A stretch of 64,000 bases of DNA from Beroe forskalii. Taxonomy: Eukaryota > Ctenophora > Nuda > Beroida > Beroidae. Below are positions 43,984 to 64,000 of the stretch, one piece after another. Numbering within the stretch: the stretch's first letter is position 1; each line of letters opens with the position of its first letter. The translations under genes were made by a program, and so were the position numbers. Below the pieces are notes generated by a model. It saw only the letters and a list, made by a program, of their open reading frames with translations. It had not been told where the DNA came from and ran no database searches. The stretch covers positions 682,001-746,000 of the forward strand of contig WFMF01000019.1 of assembly GCA_011033025.1 (NCBI GenBank), given 5' to 3'.

Positions 43984-45995
43984 ATGAAACAAATTTTAGA
44001 CGGTCGGCACGATCTCTGCTATCACGACAGCTGCAATCTTAGAGTGGAGCTAGGCTTTTACAGCACAAGGACTTCAGGTATGTCTATTTACATTCTCCTC
44101 AATAAAAGAGCAATTATATGAACAATTCTTCTCAAAAATACTAAAATAGTATATAGACGTGCAATGTAACCATCGCCAATTCAAATATTAGATTGTCTGT
44201 GTGTCTTTGGAACGTACATGAACAAGGAACACATAACAGTATCTAGGTTAATTCTCTTCAGAAATACTGATGCAACGCTTATTGAAGGAACTGCCCTGGG
44301 AACAAGATACAACGAAGCAGACAAGAAAGGTCTTGTGGTACTGTGATAATGGCGATACTGTCTACACATATGGCAAGGTATGATGACAAGGTGTCTAATT
44401 GAGTATTTAAGTAATTGACTCTGAGGGAGCAACATCACTTTTAGATTTTGGTATGGTCGACGGGCGTTCAATTGCAAAGTATAGGCCTTGTTATGATATA
44501 ACGTTCCGAATCACAATAACTCAATAATATCATTCTATCGTTGCCTGAATGTCATATTCGCTTCCTGTTATCTCACATGATACCTGTCTACCTAGTAAGC
44601 TAGTACTACTCTTTCGCCAGTACGAAATGACGCCACGAGGTCTGGCAACACAACCACTGTTGTATAGTATTAGGAACTATGTTCAAAAGGAGACACGGAG
44701 TGAATTCAACTCAGTCTTGATAAACCTCTACAAGGACCAGAGGGATTACGTGGGCTGGCATGCTGATGATGAGCCCGTGCTCGACAAGAGAGCAAACATA
44801 GCATCTCTGTCATTTGGTGAAACTAGGAGGTTTCAACTTAAAAGTAAGTTTAATCTTCAGCAGTACTGTTTACACCTCATTTAAAGTAACCTAAATTCAG
44901 AAGATATTGATTAAACTCATGAATGATTGACATCAAAGGACACTCATATCTTTAACTTAAGTTAATGAGATGAACCTCACTAATAACCACATAACGCAAA
45001 CTGTTGTAAAATATACTGTAATTACATATACATGATCAGTATATCTATCTATAAGTTTGGTCGACGTTTTATCACCCTAGTAGAAGATACTCTAACCGTG
45101 TCCCCAAGTCAAACATCTGCTCAATGCACTGAAGGCTCCCAGTGCAGCGAGCCAGTAAAGCAAATTTAGAATATCTCGATTCTAGTAAGTTTACTAAGTT
45201 AGTATAACTCAATTAAGAGCAGGTACCTTATTGGCCCTTATTTAACCGGCCCTTAAGGACAAAAACGACTTTGAGATTTTTGTCCAAAGGGCCGGTTAAA
45301 AAAATGGCCGGTTAAAATGGGGCCGATTAAATTAAAGGCCAGTTGATTGAGGTCAGATGAAACTCTTGTTACTTGGCTTATGTACTGGCAAATTCATTTC
45401 ACCGTCATAATAAAACGCAGATAATGACCTAAATCATGATATTAGACCAGTATTTGAGTTTTTTTGATACATTTTACTGAGTGTAAGTTGGTTTTTGTGG
45501 CTATTTTGAGGCAAAATTTTCTTGTTTTGGCAACTGCTTCAAAACTTTTTGTCCAAGGGGCCGGTTAAAATGGTTCAAAAATGATTCGATTTTTGTCCAT
45601 AGGGCCGGTTAAAAAAAGGGCCGGTTAAAAAAAAGGCCGGCTAAATAAAGGCCAATAAGGTATTGGGGAAATCATTTAATATGTACTTAGGTAAATCACT
45701 TCGAGATCCAAGTCTTACATAAGTATTTATAAAGAATTGCTTGCTAAAACTTTTTACTTTTCTGACATCGAGTCATTAAACAAATGAAATGAGTATGTAA
45801 ACTGTAAAGATAAATAAAATGATTGTTTCAGGAGTAAGATGGCGGGGCGCTGAAGATCGTTTTGAAGTGAAGCTGTCTTCTGGTTCCCTGGTCACAATGA
45901 GCAGCAGGGTACAGAGTCATTTCATACATAGGATCCCAGCAGAAGATCATTCATGCAAGCAGAGAATAAATTTGACTTTTCGGCGAGTGCTATGA
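43984..45995 (+). CDS. AlkB homolog, ALKBH2/3-type 2-oxoglutarate/Fe(II) dioxygenase, four exons
   Basis: Predicted exons 43984-44077, 44262-44377, 44621-44843 and 45832-45995 join in frame (597 nt, 198 codons plus stop) with GT donors and AG acceptors. Function by family: oxidative demethylation of 1-methyladenine/3-methylcytosine in DNA or RNA. Landmarks: LGFYSTRTSEILMQRLLKEL and PWEQ (about 24-48), substrate-lid VYTYGKYEMTP (65-75), FNSVLINLYKDQRDYVGWHA with H117-x-D119, IASLSFGETRRF, second metal His H177 in HFIHRIP, and 2OG-binding R189/R195 in RINLTFRR. WHADDEPVL and IASLSFG are closer to ALKBH3 than ALKBH2. The start is uncertain: ATG 43984 is simply the first in frame, and an AG at 43999 could instead be an acceptor for an upstream exon. 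The third intron contains a MITE (45234-45662). Confidence 0.88.
45234..45662. mobile_element. GGCCGGTTAA-rich MITE, copy 3, in an ALKBH intron
   Basis: Complete copy: TACCTTATTGGCC at the left and GGCCAATAAGGTA at the right are perfect inverted repeats, flanked by TA. The interior is in the opposite orientation to copy 1 (AGGTCAGATGAAACTCTTGT, ATTATGAC-type strings). Confidence 0.9.
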
Positions 45996-55850: not shown

Positions 55851-58545
55851 CTTCAGCATAATTTCATGAAACTTTGCGTATTTGTTTGAGAGTGTTCCAT
55901 TTTGAAGGGAAAAATCGGCGAAAAATCGAAAAACTTCCGTGCTAGTTTTACCACCCTCAAACACAGTGGATTTCAGGAAATTTTAGGCCATTTCTTTTCG
56001 ATATCTCCAAATTCCTTCGTCACATTTCATGAAACTGATTTCCAGTCCGAAACACAAGGATTTCTTTTGATTTTAATTTCAAGAAACTTTGCAATCCATT
56101 CGATAATTTCATCCTAAGAACTCCTAAGAAGGGAAAAACGTCCAAAATCGAAACTCCACGTGCTAGTTTTACCGATACAGTCAAACACAAAGGATTTATT
56201 TTTGATTTTACGAAGGTCGACTTGGCACAAGGTCATATCTCAATTCCTTCGTCATAATTTCATGGAACTTTGCAATCCATTCGAGAGTGATCCTAAGAAC
56301 TTACTTAAAACGGAAAAAACGTCAAAAAATCAAACTCCACGTGCTAGTTTTACCGATAAAGTCAAACACAAGGATTTATTTTGATTTTACGAAGGTCGAC
56401 TTGGTACAAGGGTCATATCTCCGAATTCCTTCGTCATAATTTCATGGAACTGCAATCCATTCAGTGATCTAGAAAACGTCAAAAATCGAAACTCCACGTA
56501 GTTTTACCGCTAAGTCAAACTGATTTATTTTGATTTACGAAGGTCGGAGATGGAATTCCTTCGTCCTTAATTTCAGAAGGGTAAAAACGGATCTGAAAAA
56601 AAACGTTTGATACTCCACGCGCTATTTTTTCCGCTACAGTCAAACAGTTAATGAGTCGGTTGAATTTAATGGTTCATATCTCCTGAATTCCTTCGTCATA
56701 ATTTCATGAAACTTTGCAATCCATTCGAGAGTGATCCTAAGAAGGGCAAACGTCAAAAAATCGAAAGTCCACGTGATTGTTTTAAATTTTTAATGAAATT
56801 ATGACCTAGAATTCGGAGATATGACCTTGTACCAAGTCGACCTTCGTAAAATCAAAATAAATCCTTGTGTTTGACTGTAGCGGTAAAACTAGCACGTGGA
56901 GTTTCGATTTTTGACGTTTTTCCCTTCTAGGATCACTCTCGAATGGATTGCAAGTTTCATGAAATTTTGACGAAGGAATTGGAGATATGACCCTTGTACC
57001 AAGTCGACCTTCGTAAAATCAAAAGAAATCCTTGTGTTTGACTGTAGCGGTAAACTAGCACGTGGAGTTTCGATTTTTGACGTTTTTCCCTTCTTAGGAT
57101 CACTCGAATGGATCGCAAAGTTTCATGAAATTATGACGAAGGAATTCGGAGATATGACCCTGTACCAAGTCGACCTTCGTAAATCAAAAGAAATCCTTGT
57201 GTTTGACTGTAGCGGTAAAACTAGCACGTGGAGTTTTGATTTTTTAACGTTTTTCCCTTCTTAGGATCACTCTCGAATGGATTGCAAAGTTTCATGAAAT
57301 TATGCCGAAGGAATTCGGAGATATGACCCTTGTACCAAGTCGACCTTCGTAAAATCAAAAGAAATCCTTGTGTTTGACTGTAGCGGTAAAACTAGCACGT
57401 GGAGTTTCGATTTTTTGACGTTTCTCCCTTCTTAGGATCACTCTTGAATGAATTGCAAAGTTTCATGAAATTATGACGATGGAATTGAGATATGACCCTG
57501 TACCAAGTCGACCTGATCGTAAAATCAAAATAAATCCTTGTGTTTGACTGTAGCGGTGAAACTAGCACGTGGAGTTTCGGATTTTTGACGTTTTTCCCTT
57601 CTTAGACCACTCTCAAATGGATTGCAAAGTTTCATGAAATTATGACGAAGGAATTCGGAGATAGCGACCCTTGGTACCAAGTCGACCTTCGTAAAATCAA
57701 AAGAAACTCTTGTGTTTGACTGTAGCGGTAAACTAGCACGTGGAGTTTCGATTTTTTGACGTTTTCCTTCTTAGGATCACTCTCGAATAGATTGCAAAGT
57801 TTCATGAAATTATGACGAAGGAATTCGGAGATATGACCCTTGTATCAAGTCGACCTTCGTAAAATCAAATAAATCCCTTGTGTGTTTGACTGTAGCGGTG
57901 AAACTAGCACGTGGGTTTCGATTTTTTGACGTTTTTCCCTTCTTAGGATCACTCTTGAATGAATTGCAAAGTTTCATGAAATTATGACGAAGGAATTCGA
58001 GATATGACCTTGTACCAAGTCGACCTGATCGTAAAATCAAAATAAATCCTTGTGTTTGACTGTAGCGGTAAAACTAGCACGTGGAATTTCGATTTTTTGA
58101 CGTTTTTCCCTCTTAGGATCACTCTCGAATGATTGCAAAGTTTCATAAAATTATGACGAAGGAATTCGGAGATATGACCCTTGTACCAAGTCGACCTTCG
58201 TAAAATCAAAATAAATCCTTGTGTTTGACTGTAGCGGTGAAACTAGCACGTGGAGTTTCGATTTTTGACGTTTTTCCTTCTTGAGATAACTCTCAGAATG
58301 GATTGCAAAGTTTCATGAAATTATGACGAAGGAATTCGGAGATATGACCCTTGTACCAAGTCGACCTTCGTAAAATCAAAATAAATCCTTGTGTTTGACT
58401 GTAGCGGAAAAAACTAGCACGTGGAGTTTCGATTTTTTGACGTTTTTCCCTTCTTAGGACCACTCTCAAATGGATTGCAAAAAGTTTCATGAAATTATGA
58501 CGAAGGAATTCGGAGATATGACCCGTTGTACCAAGATAATGCATT
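55850..58545. repeat. Satellite of about 171 bp with an internal orientation switch
   Basis: From about 56790 rightward, some ten units read GGAGATATGACCCTTGTACC, AAGTCGACCTTCGTAAAATC, CTGTAGCGGTAAAACTAGCA, CGTGGAGTTTCGATTTTTTG. From about 55870 to 56785 about five more diverged units are in reverse complement. The head-to-head junction is near 56780. Numerous one- to three-base indels break every frame. Confidence 0.93.
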
Positions 58546-58569
58546 TGGTACAGTTGGTACACTTAGGTC

Positions 58570-60815
58570 CGACTCGTATAGTGGCAGTAGGACTTTCTCC
58601 ATTTTTGCACGTATTCATATTCGGGAAATCGGGCATTTCGGCTTATTGACATAGAATTCGAGTGAACAAGAAATGGCCTAATTCATCAACCAAATCTTGT
58701 AATCGGCTGAAACTTGCCAGTTCTGCTCATCAGGCATGGATGAACATTCCTCAGGAGTTTTGGGCTCATCATAAGAGCAATGTTTATTTTAAACGCAAGG
58801 AAAAAAATTCCAAAACTTCAAAAATCGAAAAAGTCGAATAATTAAAAAAGTGGCAATTAGAGGTGATGAAACTTGCCAAATTTACTTATCAGACATTGAC
58901 AAACATTCCTCGTGGAGTTTTATAAAATCAAAGGAGCTGTTTTTATTTAAACACAAGGAAAGTTTTCAAAACAAAATCGAAAAAGTCCAAAGTTCAAAAA
59001 CGGCACTAGAAATCGATGAAACTTGCCAAATTTACTAATCAGACATTGATAAACATTCCTGTGGAGTTTTATGAAAATCAACAGGCCGTCTTTATTTTAA
59101 ACGCAAGGAAAGTTTTCAAAAATGTATACCGTGCAAAAATCGAAAAAGTCGAATAATTCAAAAACTGGCACTTAGAGTGATAAAACTTTTCAAGTTTGCC
59201 TCAGGCATTGATTAACATTCCTGCGGAGTTTTATAAAATCAACGGAGCTGTTTTATTTTAAACACAAGGAAAGTTTTCAAAAATCGAAAAGTCGAATAAT
59301 TCAAAACTGGCACTTAGAAATTGATGAAACTTGCCAAATTTACTTATCAGACATTTATAATTGTTCTAACAGGTTTATGAAAATCAACGGAGCCGTTTTA
59401 TTTTAAACGCAAAGGAAAGTTTTCAAAAATGTATACCACCGTGCAAAAAAATCGTAAAGTCGAATAATTCAAAACTGGCACTTAGAAATTGATGAAACTT
59501 GCCAAATTTACTTATGAGACATTGATAAACATTCCTGTGGAGTTTTATGAAAATCAACGGGCCGTTTTTATTTTAAAACGCGCGGTGTATACGTGCAAAA
59601 AATCGAAAGTCGAATAATTCAAAAACTGGCACTTAGAAATTGATGAAACTTGCCAAATTTACTTATCAGACATTGATTAACATTCCTGTGGAGTTTTATG
59701 AAAATCAACGGAGCCGTTTTTTATTTTAAACGCAAGGAAAGTTTTCAAAAATGTATACCGTGCCAGTTTTTGAATTATTCGACTTTTTCGATTTTTGATT
59801 TTTGAAAACTTTCCTTGTGTTTAAAATGAAAACGGCTCCGTTGATTTTTATAAACTCCGCAGAATGTTTATCAATGTCTGATAAGTAAATTTGGCAAGTT
59901 TCATCAATTTCTAAGTGCCAGTTTTTGAATTATTCGACTTTTCGATTTTTGCAGGTATACATTTTTGAAAATTTTCCTTGCGTTTAAAATAAAACGGCAC
60001 CGTTGATTTTTATAAAACTCCCAGGAATGTTTATCAATATCTGATAAGTAAATTTGGCAAGTTTCATCAATTTCTAAGAGCCAGTTTTTGAATTATTCGA
60101 CTTTTTCGATTTTTTGCACGGTATACATTTTTGAAAACTCTCCCTGCGTTTAAAATAAAAACGGCTCCGTTGATTTTCATAAAACTCCATAGAATGTTCT
60201 TCAATGTCTGATAAGTAAATTTGGCAAGTTTCATCAATTTCTAAGTGCCAGTTTTTGAATTATTCGACTTTTTCGATTTTTGATTTTTTGAAAACTTTCC
60301 TTGTGTTTAAAATGAAAACGGCTCCGTTGATTTTTATAAAACTCCGCAGGAATGTTTATCAATGTCTAATAAGTAAATTTGGAAAGTTTTATCAATTTCT
60401 AAGTGCCAGTTTTTGAATTATTCGACTTTTTCAATTTTTTGCACGGTATACATTTTTGAAAACTTTCCTTGCGTTTAAAATAAAAAACGGCTCCGTTGAT
60501 TTTCATAAAACTCCACAGGAATGTTTATCAATGTCTGATAAGTAAATTTGGCAAGTTTCATCAATTTCTATGCCAGTTTTTGAATTATTCGACTTTTTCG
60601 ATTTTTGATTTTTTGAAAACTTTCCTTGTGTTTAAAATGAAAACGGCTCCGTTGATTTCTATAAAACTCCTCAGGGACGTTCCTCTATGTCTAATAAGTA
60701 AATTTGGCAAGTTTCATCAATTCCTAAGTGCCAGTTTTTGAATTATTCGACTTTTTCGTTTTTTTGCACGGCCGTGCAAAACGTGCAAGAAAGTCCAACT
60801 CTATAGTGGATGCAA
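58570..60815. repeat. Satellite of about 165 bp arranged as a 2.2-kb inverted repeat
   Basis: 58640-59765: units with AAACTTGCCAAATTTACTTA, TCAGACATTGATAAACATTC, GGAGTTTTATGAAAATCAAC, AACGCAAGGAAAGTTTTCAA. 59766-60780: the same units in reverse complement. The switch lies inside a GTATACCGTGCCAGTTTTTG string with no spacer. The outermost ends also look inverted (AGGACTTTCTCCATTTTTGCACG-like left, CGTGCAAGAAAGTCCAAC right), so the block may be one foldback element. Confidence 0.9.
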
Positions 60816-61440: not shown

Positions 61441-61602
61441 AGACACTTGAACACTATAAAAGATAACCTTCTTTACCTTCTCACTTACGTTGCTTATCAG
61501 CACAGATAAGAAGTTGCATCAGCGCTGCTACACATCGTGTGTATAATAATCTACATTGAAAACATACAAGTGAAATACACCTAAACTACACACTCTACAC
61601 CC

Positions 61603-62474
61603 ATGGTTTCGACTCGTTCCAGCTCCAATGCTTCAGAACCAGCACCTGCTCCTACTGTTGGAACCCCCTCTTCAACTAACGTCACCCAACGGATTGGATC
61701 TGTGACGTCCATGCTGGACAGACTGGGCCAGACGCTTGATGCCTTGCCAGCGGTCACGGAGTTCGAGAAGGGGATCAAGGACTACCTGGGTTACCTTCAT
61801 TGCCAAGTGACGGAGATCAAGTTGGAACAGGCCAAGCTGCGGGAGGAGATGTTGGTTCGGAATCACCAGGTGAGGAACTCTGTTGCGGATCTGGAAGTGA
61901 ACGTGGCAAAGAATGAGCAGTACACACGGAGGGACACGGTTACGGTGGTGGGGCTCCCTAAGCCGGAGGAGGGTGCTGAGTCTCAAGGGGACCTGTGCTC
62001 CAAGGTGGCGGAAGTGCTGTCGGCGTCCGGAGAAACGGTAACTGTTCAAGACCTGTCTGCTGTTCACAGAAACGCAAACCAAAGTCGTGTTATACGAGGT
62101 AAGACGATACCGCCATCCATTACAGTTAGGTTTCTTAGGATTAATAAGAAGGACAATGTGCTCAGGGGTTATAAGAACTATGACAGCACGCTAACAATAG
62201 ACCTCGGGATGTTAAGATTTACCAGTCTCTGTCTCCGTACTATTCTGACCTTCGAAAGTCGATATATGATTTTCTGAACTGTAAATCAGATAACCAGTTA
62301 TTTGATAAGATAAAGAATGTTGACTTAAAACCCAAGTGGGTGACGTACCAAAGCCCGACGTCGGGCTTCGCTGTAAAGTTAGCTACTGGGGAATATTTCA
62401 ATGGAATTCATTCTCTAGATGACTTTTCGAAGCATATTTATAACAAATTCCCTGCATGCAGAGTTGATGTATGA
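61603..62474 (+). CDS. LINE ORF1-type protein, coiled coil plus RRM-like, one frameshift
   Basis: The ATG at 61603 opens a frame to 62277. A -1 shift near 62203-62208 recovers a second frame to TGA at 62472-62474, about 290 residues in all. Ser/Thr/Pro-rich N-terminus (1-30); heptad-like segment to about residue 105 (VTEIKLEQAKLREEMLV; VADLEVNVAKNEQYTRRDT); then VTVVGLPKPEEGAE and AVHRNANQSRVIRGKTIPPS matching the RRM-like core of L1/Tx1-type ORF1 proteins. After the shift DVKIYQSLSPYYSDLRKSIY matches their C-terminal domain. Family role: trimeric RNA-binding chaperone of the element RNP. The 5' part is distinctly GC-richer than the 3' part. The shift may be a mutation, a sequencing error or, less likely, programmed. 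Confidence 0.7.
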
Positions 62475-62726
62475 TGAGTAAATTTGAAGTTTTAATTATC
62501 ACTCCAGTAATAATTAGATTTATTTGTTATTTACCTGAGGTATGATGTTGTTAATTGATGGATTACACCCGATAAAGCTCTTATCAAATGTTCATAATCT
62601 ATACTGAGAGTTAGCTAAAAATAAAATGTATATTGTATTGGAATACAAACTTCGTGTTATGATTAGGGCCTCTCTGTATTCTTCTGTATCCATTTAATTT
62701 TATACATGTTTTTCTACTAATTGACG

Positions 62727-63356
62727 ATGGTTTTACATTCTACAGAGTACATAACAGTGGAAAACAGTCAAGTAATTGTATCGTGTGCTGATGATTCGTT
62801 CTGTGATATGAAGAATGTTATCTGCTACATTCCCACCGTCACTTTTTGCCCTACTTTTGACTTCTACTCGCTGCTAAATTCTCTTGTTTTTGATAGGAAA
62901 TTTAGATCCGGTCGAAATACCCAGTTTTTTGGGGTTTCACCGTACAATTACGGTAAAGTTGAACACTCTCCCTGTTGTATCACGTCTAACCGATTTATCA
63001 AAGAGATGTTTGATTTTATTGAGTGCAATTTCCCCTATCTATCTGTTAATTCATGCTTGATCAATTATTATCCGGACAGATCTAGTTTTATACCAGATCA
63101 TTCTGATGACGAATCGCATATTGCACAGGGTTCATTTATCGTTACAATTTCCCTAGGTTCAACACGTAAAATGGTTTTTAAAGACTTGTCATCTGAAAAT
63201 CTGCTATGCTCAGTATCGTTAAAAAATGGCCAAGTATTAATCTTTTCTAAACTAAGTCAATCGTTTTTCACTCATGGTGTTCCCGCTTGTGTTGCTGGCA
63301 ATGCAAGTAGCGATTTCTCTCCTAGAATCTCGGCAACTTTCCGACTAATTACTTGA
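62727..63356 (+). CDS. AlkB-like 2-oxoglutarate/Fe(II) dioxygenase, retroelement-associated
   Basis: 209 codons from ATG 62727, intronless. Motifs in AlkB order: GRNTQFFGVSPYNYGK (substrate lid, about 62-77), LINYYPDRSSFIPDHSDDE with metal-binding H125-x-D127, IVTISLGSTRKMVF, LKNGQVLIFSKLSQ, second metal His H183 in FFTHGVP, and RISATFR with R200 and R206 for 2-oxoglutarate. All catalytic residues are present, and length and order match a minimal AlkB domain. It is clearly diverged from the intron-bearing ALKBH gene at 43984-45995. It lies 250 bp after ORF1 and 100 bp before the PHD frame. By family the activity would be removal of methyl groups from nucleic acid bases. Which substrate, and whether it serves the element, is inference. 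Confidence 0.8.
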   Translation: MVLHSTEYITVENSQVIVSCADDSFCDMKNVICYIPTVTFCPTFDFYSLLNSLVFDRKFRSGRNTQFFGVSPYNYGKVEHSPCCITSNRFIKEMFDFIECNFPYLSVNSCLINYYPDRSSFIPDHSDDESHIAQGSFIVTISLGSTRKMVFKDLSSENLLCSVSLKNGQVLIFSKLSQSFFTHGVPACVAGNASSDFSPRISATFRLIT

Positions 63357-63459
63357 CTGTAATATGCTATCATTTTTTTTTCACTTCATTTGGAGCGTCT
63401 CTTTTTTTAAAAAGATTTTATTGGGTGTAGAGTGTGTATTCAGCTTAATTATATTTTTA

Positions 63460-64000
63460 ATGCACAACATTCCAAAAAGAGAAAACTGTGAGCTTTGCTG
63501 CAAAGCAATTTATACGCACCAAGTAATTTTAGTATGTAATCTTAACTACAAAGTCTATCACGCAAAATGTCTCAAAATCGACAACATAACAGGACTAGAA
63601 CTACAGCGGGATAAAGATTGGTTCTGTCCGATATGTATTGAAACCAACTTGCCAATAAGTCTCCTTGATTATGATGACCAAAAAGATGGTGAATCGATAA
63701 AATGCGCATCTTGTGAAAAGTTAATGAGCAAATCCAGACATACTGTCGCTCGATGTTCTATGTGTAACAGTTCATGCCATTCTACATGCCTTCTTAAGCC
63801 AAATTTTTGCTGCATAAGCTGTTATAAGCTACCTCAGAATATCACTGTTGTTTGCGAGAACTTAAATAACATGTATGCAAACGATACATTTCAGCCATAC
63901 AACGAAACATTAGACAATGATAGTCAACGTTTCTTCGACGATGACGTTGAGAATTTTTGCGACAATGTCAGAATAAGTAAAACCGTATTGGATAGGTGTA
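63460..64000 (+). CDS. PHD-type zinc-finger protein, partial (runs off the right edge)
   Basis: ATG 63460 opens 180 codons with no stop before the window ends. The first finger has C10-x2-C13, C26, H34-x2-C37 and WFC56-x2-C59, with the fourth ligand (position 29, Asn) missing. The second is a full C4HC3 set: C82-x2-C85, C99-x2-C102, H107-x2-C110, C118-x2-C121. An acidic stretch follows (RFFDDDVENFCDN). PHD fingers occur N-terminally in proteins of CR1-like LINEs and, in host proteins, read histone tails. Continuation into an endonuclease/reverse transcriptase is expected but unseen. A host PHD protein is the alternative. Confidence 0.65.
   Translation, partial: MHNIPKRENCELCCKAIYTHQVILVCNLNYKVYHAKCLKIDNITGLELQRDKDWFCPICIETNLPISLLDYDDQKDGESIKCASCEKLMSKSRHTVARCSMCNSSCHSTCLLKPNFCCISCYKLPQNITVVCENLNNMYANDTFQPYNETLDNDSQRFFDDDVENFCDNVRISKTVLDRC

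Follow-up and report, generated by a model that had tools for sequence, protein, structure and literature searches.

Among described elements, the closest published layout to the one reported here is that of the L2/CR1 long interspersed nuclear elements (LINEs) of the Jockey superfamily with a type IIB first open reading frame (ORF1), namely L2 subgroup 5 (Metcalfe and Casane 2014, PMC4120745). In the available parts of that source these elements have an L1-type ORF1 (Transposase_22), a PHD finger probably located at the start of ORF2, an APE-type endonuclease (APE) and a reverse transcriptase (RT). They differ from the present element in having no AlkB, and the terms AlkB, 2OG (2-oxoglutarate), (di)oxygenase and demethyl- are absent from the main text (PMC4120745). 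Zebrafish ZfL2-1, a CR1/L2 element with a type IV esterase ORF1, is described in the available parts of PMC3905857 with an SGNH domain in ORF1, as in the fused Beroe families treated below; in those families, however, an AlkB precedes the esterase, and AlkB or dioxygenase is absent from the main text on ZfL2-1 (PMC3905857). The element described here is a retrotransposon without long terminal repeats (non-LTR) from the ctenophore Beroe forskalii, which encodes an AlkB-type 2OG-Fe(II) dioxygenase in a frame of its own. It was recognized at the right-hand end of a stretch of 64,000 nucleotides (the window; assembly GCA_011033025.1, contig WFMF01000019.1, positions 682,001 to 746,000, forward strand), and several LINE families of Beroe carry their own ALKBH2/3-like AlkB as an accessory protein. 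The contig holding the window is called C236 below, and L numbers denote loci read from the same assembly. Its COX1 (contig C1134, with TGA translated as Trp) matches a two-member UniRef cluster of Beroe forskalii (Ctenophora, Nuda) at 100% identity across 507 residues, which places the host in Beroe at least at genus level.

An AlkB frame inside a LINE present in two copies

The original prediction held that three intronless frames in a row on one strand encode an ORF1, an AlkB-like enzyme and a PHD protein, and proposed a non-LTR element that carries an AlkB as a separate frame. The three same-strand frames are present (Table 1), and the proposed order, with AlkB between ORF1 and a PHD-bearing ORF2, was supported when the locus was read on rightward past the window end (L009). 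The element starts at about position 61470, the window closes inside it, and both an APE and an RT follow, the RT frame starting 3.55 kb past the AlkB stop codon with a 1.5-kb insertion included, within the 4 kb or so in which an RT had been expected. The RT match (PF00078) has an E value of 2.5e-17 in L009 and 7.9e-34 in the second copy, L010; the APE match (PF14529) lies barely above the cut-off in L010 (E 2.4e-6) and barely below it in L009 (E 1.5e-5). The PHD-like fingers were found as foreseen, in L009 below the Pfam cut-offs (PHD, E 0.015; C1_1, E 6e-4), and instead of a separate PHD protein they form the start of ORF2, the likely start codon of which is the ATG at 63460. ORF1 is of LINE-1 type: LINE-1 ORF1p structures were the first PDB matches of a profile of six ORF1s, the window ORF1 included, at a modest E value of 0.0026; Pfam Transposase_22 gave no match for any of five single ORF1s. 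By analogy, the first part of ORF1 would be a coiled coil followed by the start of an RNA recognition motif. A single intact ORF1 frame was not found, since ORF1 of copy 1 consists of two overlapping frames and is thus frameshifted. Intronless frames are indeed what the DNA presents, while the certainty of that description is lessened by the candidate ORF1-AlkB splice sites discussed below.

About 46 kb separates the first copy from the second, which shares 99% identity with it and occupies the minus strand of C236 (about 797.0-809.1 kb); in the second copy AlkB is interrupted by about 6 kb of other sequence. The flanks of the two copies differ at both ends; the 3' end is common to both, and the tails that follow it are unequal in length. 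Because the AlkB frame lies inside a unit common to two copies with different flanks, it is part of the mobile unit. An RVT_1-type RT, an APE before it and copies at different sites with a common 3' end identify this unit as a LINE. No word of 6 or more bases indicating a target-site duplication was shared between the compared flanks of either copy, the exact ends of which are unsure; LINEs of such a kind can be without target-site duplications. An L1-type ORF1 followed by a PHD at the start of ORF2, as present in the window element, is a feature of L2/CR1 elements with type IIB ORF1, and the element is placed in the L2/CR1 group by this architecture rather than by a tree with named RT references. 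A host gene or an ALKBH retrocopy was considered as well, and is ruled out by the position of AlkB inside the two-copy unit together with APE and/or RT on the AlkB strand in 17 of 20 AlkB loci for which 10 kb was read and most of which were taken from the head of the protein-search list.

Similarity to the 3' end of the window element was also found in L011 and L036. In L036 (C703:413379-416570) the family 3' end is followed, after some 370 bp, by the 5' end of a further copy, possibly a tandem insertion. Directly left of the window element, imperfect repeats were seen by eye at 58000-60760, turning inverted near 59760. No Rfam match was obtained within the window.

Table 1. Features of the window element and loci of the AlkB-bearing families in the Beroe assembly
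Feature	Position or loci	Strand	Basis or remark
Non-LTR retrotransposon, copy 1	window 61470..64000, on to C236:751235 (L009 471-8236)	+	99% identity to copy 2
ORF1 first part, LINE-1 ORF1p-type (type II)	61585..62277	+	profile of six ORF1s against PDB
ORF1 C-terminal part, other frame	62184..62474	+	motif KWVTYQSP also in ORF1s of L011 and L012
AlkB-type 2OG-Fe(II) dioxygenase, 209 aa, separate frame	62727..63356	+	PF13532, E 1.8e-19
ORF2 N-terminal part: two PHD-like zinc fingers, then APE	63349..64000 and beyond the window (L009 2350-4530)	+	
RT, split over three frames	L009 5904-7593	+	PF00078
Insertion of about 1.5 kb between APE and RT	L009 4449-5950		
Separate AlkB after L1-type ORF1	L009/L010, L011, L012, L013, L016; L015		L015 less clear
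PHD-like finger-AlkB-SGNH fused in ORF1, before PHD-APE-RT ORF2	L018, L024, L026		
Type C: N-terminal region-AlkB-SGNH before RT	L017, L020, L021, L022, L025; L019		L019 shows no ORF2
Type D: AlkB-SGNH, PHD in ORF2	L014, L023		
Type E: AlkB-SGNH	L048-L051		read for 1.7 kb only
SGNH-AlkB in reverse order, long Pro-rich tail	L027, L028		no RT seen

The enzyme, its families and its selection

The expectation of a complete AlkB catalytic set in the window frame was confirmed. Its match to Pfam 2OG-FeII_Oxy_2 is above the cut-off (Table 1), and none of 25 aligned sequences deviates at H125, D127, H183, R200, S202, T204, F205 or R206. H125, D127, H183, R200 and R206 are retained in 79 of 81 AlkB sequences (71 from elements or public relatives, two SGNH-first, two host-like and six bacterial), and in the two exceptions the key residues fall in gaps, one of them due to a stop cutting the frame. 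Eight sequences had been dropped before this count and the tree (P0027-P0031 and P0050 as short, L010 as split, P0001 as the same as L009). The H-x-D...H iron site and the R...R site in an AlkB fold place the protein in the AlkB family of 2OG-Fe(II) dioxygenases. Behind the iron motif, an acidic pair ([DN], followed by E) is retained in all but three of the 71 element rows; these residues contact the damaged base in ALKBH2/3. The nearest PDB structures by sequence were ALKBH2 (3e-7), ALKBH3 (1e-6) and E. coli AlkB (2e-3). The AlphaFold model (mean predicted local distance difference test score, pLDDT, 88.4; predicted template modelling score, pTM, 0.86) gave the same order in Foldseek, where human ALKBH2 (E 6e-13, TM 0.68, 22% identity) ranks ahead of ALKBH3 and E. 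coli AlkB. The window AlkB is accordingly described here as a predicted ALKBH2/3-like demethylase, whose catalytic activity, substrate and role in the element life cycle we infer.

The AlkB frame is far from single-copy. A search of the genome with the AlkB protein yielded 202 candidates, of which 150 were scored; a search with PF13532 yielded 189, again with 150 scored. Each figure is a minimum, and a small number of the matches are genes of host type (L040, L041 and a window exon). This exon-like frame of ALKBH2/3 host type (window 44549-44884, + strand, PF13532 E 1.3e-12) is located some 17 kb to the left of the element and is probably part of an intron-containing gene unrelated to the LINE. 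Apart from the separate form of the window element, AlkB was found fused to an SGNH domain in several arrangements (Table 1). The fused-family SGNH model (pLDDT 87) had a putative platelet-activating-factor hydrolase as its best Foldseek match (E 4.7e-7); Pfam GDSL matched in L048 (E 1.3e-6) and weakly in other fused loci, and the fused-family profile matched the esterase structure of ZfL2-1 ORF1 (4c1b; E 0.012, Foldseek rank 45). The esterase ORF1 (type IV) feature is present in the fused families only, the window element being without SGNH. In type C, an APE was seen in L017 and weakly in L020. No APE or RT was seen in the 10 kb read for L019, L027 and L028.

The latter two loci contain SGNH-first frames with long Pro-rich repeats (L027 4177-9900 on C847, L028 3755-7261 on C225), which may be part of a host gene family or of a mobile element of another kind. 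The four type E copies, on contigs C333, C1112, C481 and C581, have AlkBs 95-98% identical to one another and divergent in sequence (D at 108, S at 113, F at 75); C281 and C317 resemble two further copies of this type by their match figures.

Public protein collections contain 29 proteins homologous to the separate AlkB, the best of them 84% identical to it, and 24 that are homologous to the fused ORF1. The search takes proteins of similar length only, and the two sets are therefore split by design. All 24 fused homologues have SGNH after AlkB, and 18 a PHD-like finger. A source name was attached to four of the 29 separate homologues, one being a bacterial metagenome-assembled genome (Tenacibaculum), which is assumed to be contamination. 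No relatives were confirmed in viral contigs; bacterial genomes yielded six ordinary AlkBs, 28-34% identical, which served as the tree outgroup.

A tree of the 81 AlkB domains, as suggested in the original prediction, separated the element AlkBs from the host-like, bacterial and SGNH-first ones at a moderate support of 86/96. Sequences of the separate form cluster together (95/66), each of the types C, D and E makes up its own cluster, and the finger-fused group encloses the long-branched type E. Residue 113 varies along these lines: it is N in 30 of 30 separate rows, as it also is in the SGNH-first, host-like and bacterial AlkBs. In the finger-fused rows it is T in 28 of 29, in types C and D it is T in all eight, and in the four type E rows it is S. 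The RTs of the window type are 43-50% identical to those of the finger-fused type and 36-40% to those of type C, so AlkB is carried by at least two distant LINE lineages. Between L017 and L020 the RT is 89% identical, the AlkB 54% and the SGNH 47%, a contrast which suggests an exchange of ORF1 or very fast ORF1 change.

The ratio of nonsynonymous to synonymous substitutions (dN/dS) was calculated by the Nei-Gojobori method for 23 AlkB pairs, eight with dS below 1 and the other 15 above 1 or saturated. In all eight usable pairs, which come from fused types, it was 0.05-0.23 (L053/L054, 0.05; L019/L022, 0.06; the six pairs among L048-L051, which are not independent, 0.08-0.23). For the window type the proposed comparison across copies met saturation: L009 and L011 gave a dN of 0.36 with dS saturated, and their AlkBs differ at 40, 32 and 77 sites in codon positions 1, 2 and 3. 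AlkB is under purifying selection, with the clean values coming from the fused families.

AlkB as a frequent accessory

The idea that ORF1 and AlkB keep company was followed through 21 ORF1 matches, representing 17 loci, of which 15 were examined (all but C236:823011 and C974). AlkB lies just downstream of ORF1 at ten of them (C236 twice, C581, C1094, C478, C159, C1024, C220, C2 and C360), and at five no AlkB was seen in the DNA read: C55, C254, which is a deletion product, C703, which is an ORF1 fragment, and C197 and C247, read for 1.3 kb each. In the C254 locus (L035), an ORF1 near-identical to that of L012 runs straight into the RT, an internal deletion in which no AlkB, PHD or APE was found.

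A sister family (L037-L039) has ORF1 followed by PHD-APE-RT, with an RT 61-65% identical to the window type and a PHD above the Pfam cut-off (E 5e-7), and no AlkB was found in it. Profile searches (E < 10, frames of at least 40 aa) gave no AlkB remnant there, the best tblastn match in L037-L039 (E 0.22) was located outside the gap between the ORFs, and with the L039 gap taken by itself the matches reached E 1.4 at best. Given this layout without AlkB, AlkB is accessory and dispensable. In an ORF1 tree of nine rows, rooted at the midpoint, the AlkB-less L039 falls within the window group and two remoter AlkB carriers fall outside it, which fits a loss of AlkB in the sister family; the root is unsure and L034, the same locus as L030, is mislabelled there as AlkB-less. 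The outcome for constant co-occurrence of ORF1 and AlkB is thus mixed: AlkB is a frequent accessory of these elements and not an obligatory part.

Possible roles of the element AlkB and known systems

Our preferred reading, given a probability of about 55%, is that the LINE-encoded AlkB acts inside the ribonucleoprotein of the element, where it would oxidatively strip Watson-Crick-face methyl groups (1-methyladenine, m1A, and 3-methylcytosine, m3C) from the element RNA and perhaps from single-stranded cDNA. These two are favoured as substrate because of the resemblance to ALKBH2/3 and because such lesions hinder copying. In the available parts of PMC12140624, m1A and m3C, together with 1-methylguanosine (m1G) and N2,N2-dimethylguanosine (m2,2G), are reported to interfere with commonly used RTs, AlkB to remove m1A and m3C, and cloning with the RT of R2, a non-LTR RT, to be affected by m1A. 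Since m1A and m3C stall RTs, their removal would raise the full-length yield, and fewer stalling lesions could thus mean more full-length copies in target-primed reverse transcription. The PHD fingers may guide the complex to histones, though they are found without AlkB too.

Several points weigh against this reading. The window copy is itself broken, with ORF1 frameshifted and ORF2 interrupted, and the sister family does without AlkB. RT candidates number 3095 (83 of them scored) against 202 AlkB candidates, and most related RT copies may be without AlkB. The resemblance to ALKBH2/3 is remote (21-25% identity in the fold-search rows) and does not fix the substrate, and the unsaturated dN/dS pairs include none of the window's type. 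The link of the public homologues to LINEs is assumed.

The chief rival is erasure of a host mark (N6-methyladenosine, m6A, or m1A) from the element RNA, by which the element would avoid decay or silencing; we regard it as possible but rather doubtful. The AlkB of orchid Gypsy elements, for which such an escape has been proposed and which showed RNA binding and demethylase activity in vitro, is a precedent (PMC9289625, available parts), and the enzyme is a conserved extra frame in Beroe LINEs too. The rankings speak against it, as ALKBH2, ALKBH3 and AlkB all stand above ALKBH5 in the fold search, where ALKBH5 first appears at rank 50, the last of the 50 matches listed, and neither ALKBH5 nor FTO is among the sequence matches listed (29 of 29; best 60 of 76). 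The m6A-eraser type is thus not the closest relative, though the enzyme may still act on m6A.

It is unlikely that AlkB removes a DNA methyl mark (e.g. N6-methyladenine, 6mA) from element copies while the PHD fingers target marked chromatin. PHD-like fingers do stand at the start of ORF2 and, in the finger-fused families, also before AlkB in ORF1, and the fused profile finds a PHD from the histone demethylase Lid among its matches (E 0.0019); a PHD is, however, present in the AlkB-less sister family as well. Enzymes of the ALKBH2/3 type are not known to erase DNA methylation of the cytosine type, which counts against this explanation. DNA methylation has been reported in two ctenophores, but on cytosine (PMC8141815, available parts), and a paper which, in its available parts, does not mention AlkB describes PHD fingers as widespread among CR1/L2 elements (PMC4120745).

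General alkylation protection of the element nucleic acid or of the host cell, unlinked to reverse transcription, would agree with a fold and catalytic set the same as in ALKBH2/3. We consider it quite improbable: ALKBH-like host genes are already there (L040 and L041, for which 1.5 kb of either flank was read, and the window exon) with no element parts nearby, and a general gain from an element AlkB is therefore less obvious. Chance capture of a host ALKBH gene now in decay, to which the disrupted window copy and the stops in some relatives (e.g. one TAG in C581) could point, is very improbable given the dN/dS values, the catalytic set in 79 of 81 sequences and the moderately supported separation from the two host-like AlkBs in the tree.

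Within the preferred reading of AlkB as a demethylase of the element's own RNA, a more specific version has AlkB cleaning this RNA in cis, the window type being spliced as an ORF1-AlkB fusion which mirrors the fused families; we hold this version as tentative and rather doubtful. A phase-1 YAG lies near the start of the AlkB frame in five of six separate-type loci (the best in L015 is phase 2), a phase-1 GAG/GTAAGA occurs at the RGKT motif in the ORF1s of L009, L011 and L012, and L013 and L016, both decayed copies, have no in-frame Met before the AlkB domain. Against splicing, the acceptor scores are ordinary (matched by 0.05-0.58 of 1000 random windows), the best-scoring AG of L011 is located before the AlkB frame, and the AlkB-less sister ORF1 also has a GTAAGT. 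No genomic copy of a spliced ORF1-AlkB junction was found within two mismatches. Since the acceptor scores do not exceed chance and a spliced copy was not found, splicing is treated as a lead rather than a result. If the version is true, demethylation would in such a LINE be coupled to target-primed reverse transcription, and an accessory protein would be produced by way of splicing.

Few genome parasites have been as successful as LINEs, and the accessory proteins they carry reveal what limits them. If selection maintains an AlkB in several LINE lineages of one animal, base methylation, whether it is damage or a host mark, would be a genuine obstacle to retrotransposition; the presence of the enzyme suggests elements cleaning or unmarking their own genetic material. 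A non-LTR RT with its matched AlkB could also serve to read methylated RNA, for which AlkB is now added by hand (PMC12140624, available parts). No LINE with an AlkB was found in the open-access literature searched, from which absence from print does not follow; none is reported in the available parts of PMC10161547, PMC6338049, PMC6015446, PMC6991124 and PMC5408684. As for selfish elements that encode an AlkB, plant RNA viruses with AlkB domains are a described case (PMC544882, available parts). The animal ALKBH2 and ALKBH3 have their fold and catalytic set in common with the element AlkBs; they are cellular repair genes, with the element AlkBs across the moderately supported branch of the tree. 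In the plant RNA viruses AlkB is a domain inside the replicase polyprotein, and from this arrangement the Beroe elements differ. The nearest precedent is the orchid Ty3/Gypsy elements, which in the available parts of PMC9289625 are likewise retrotransposons with an extra AlkB frame of proven demethylase activity in vitro; these are LTR elements of plants with an ALKBH5-like enzyme of the m6A type, whereas the Beroe elements are non-LTR elements of an animal, with an ALKBH2/3-like AlkB in several lineages.

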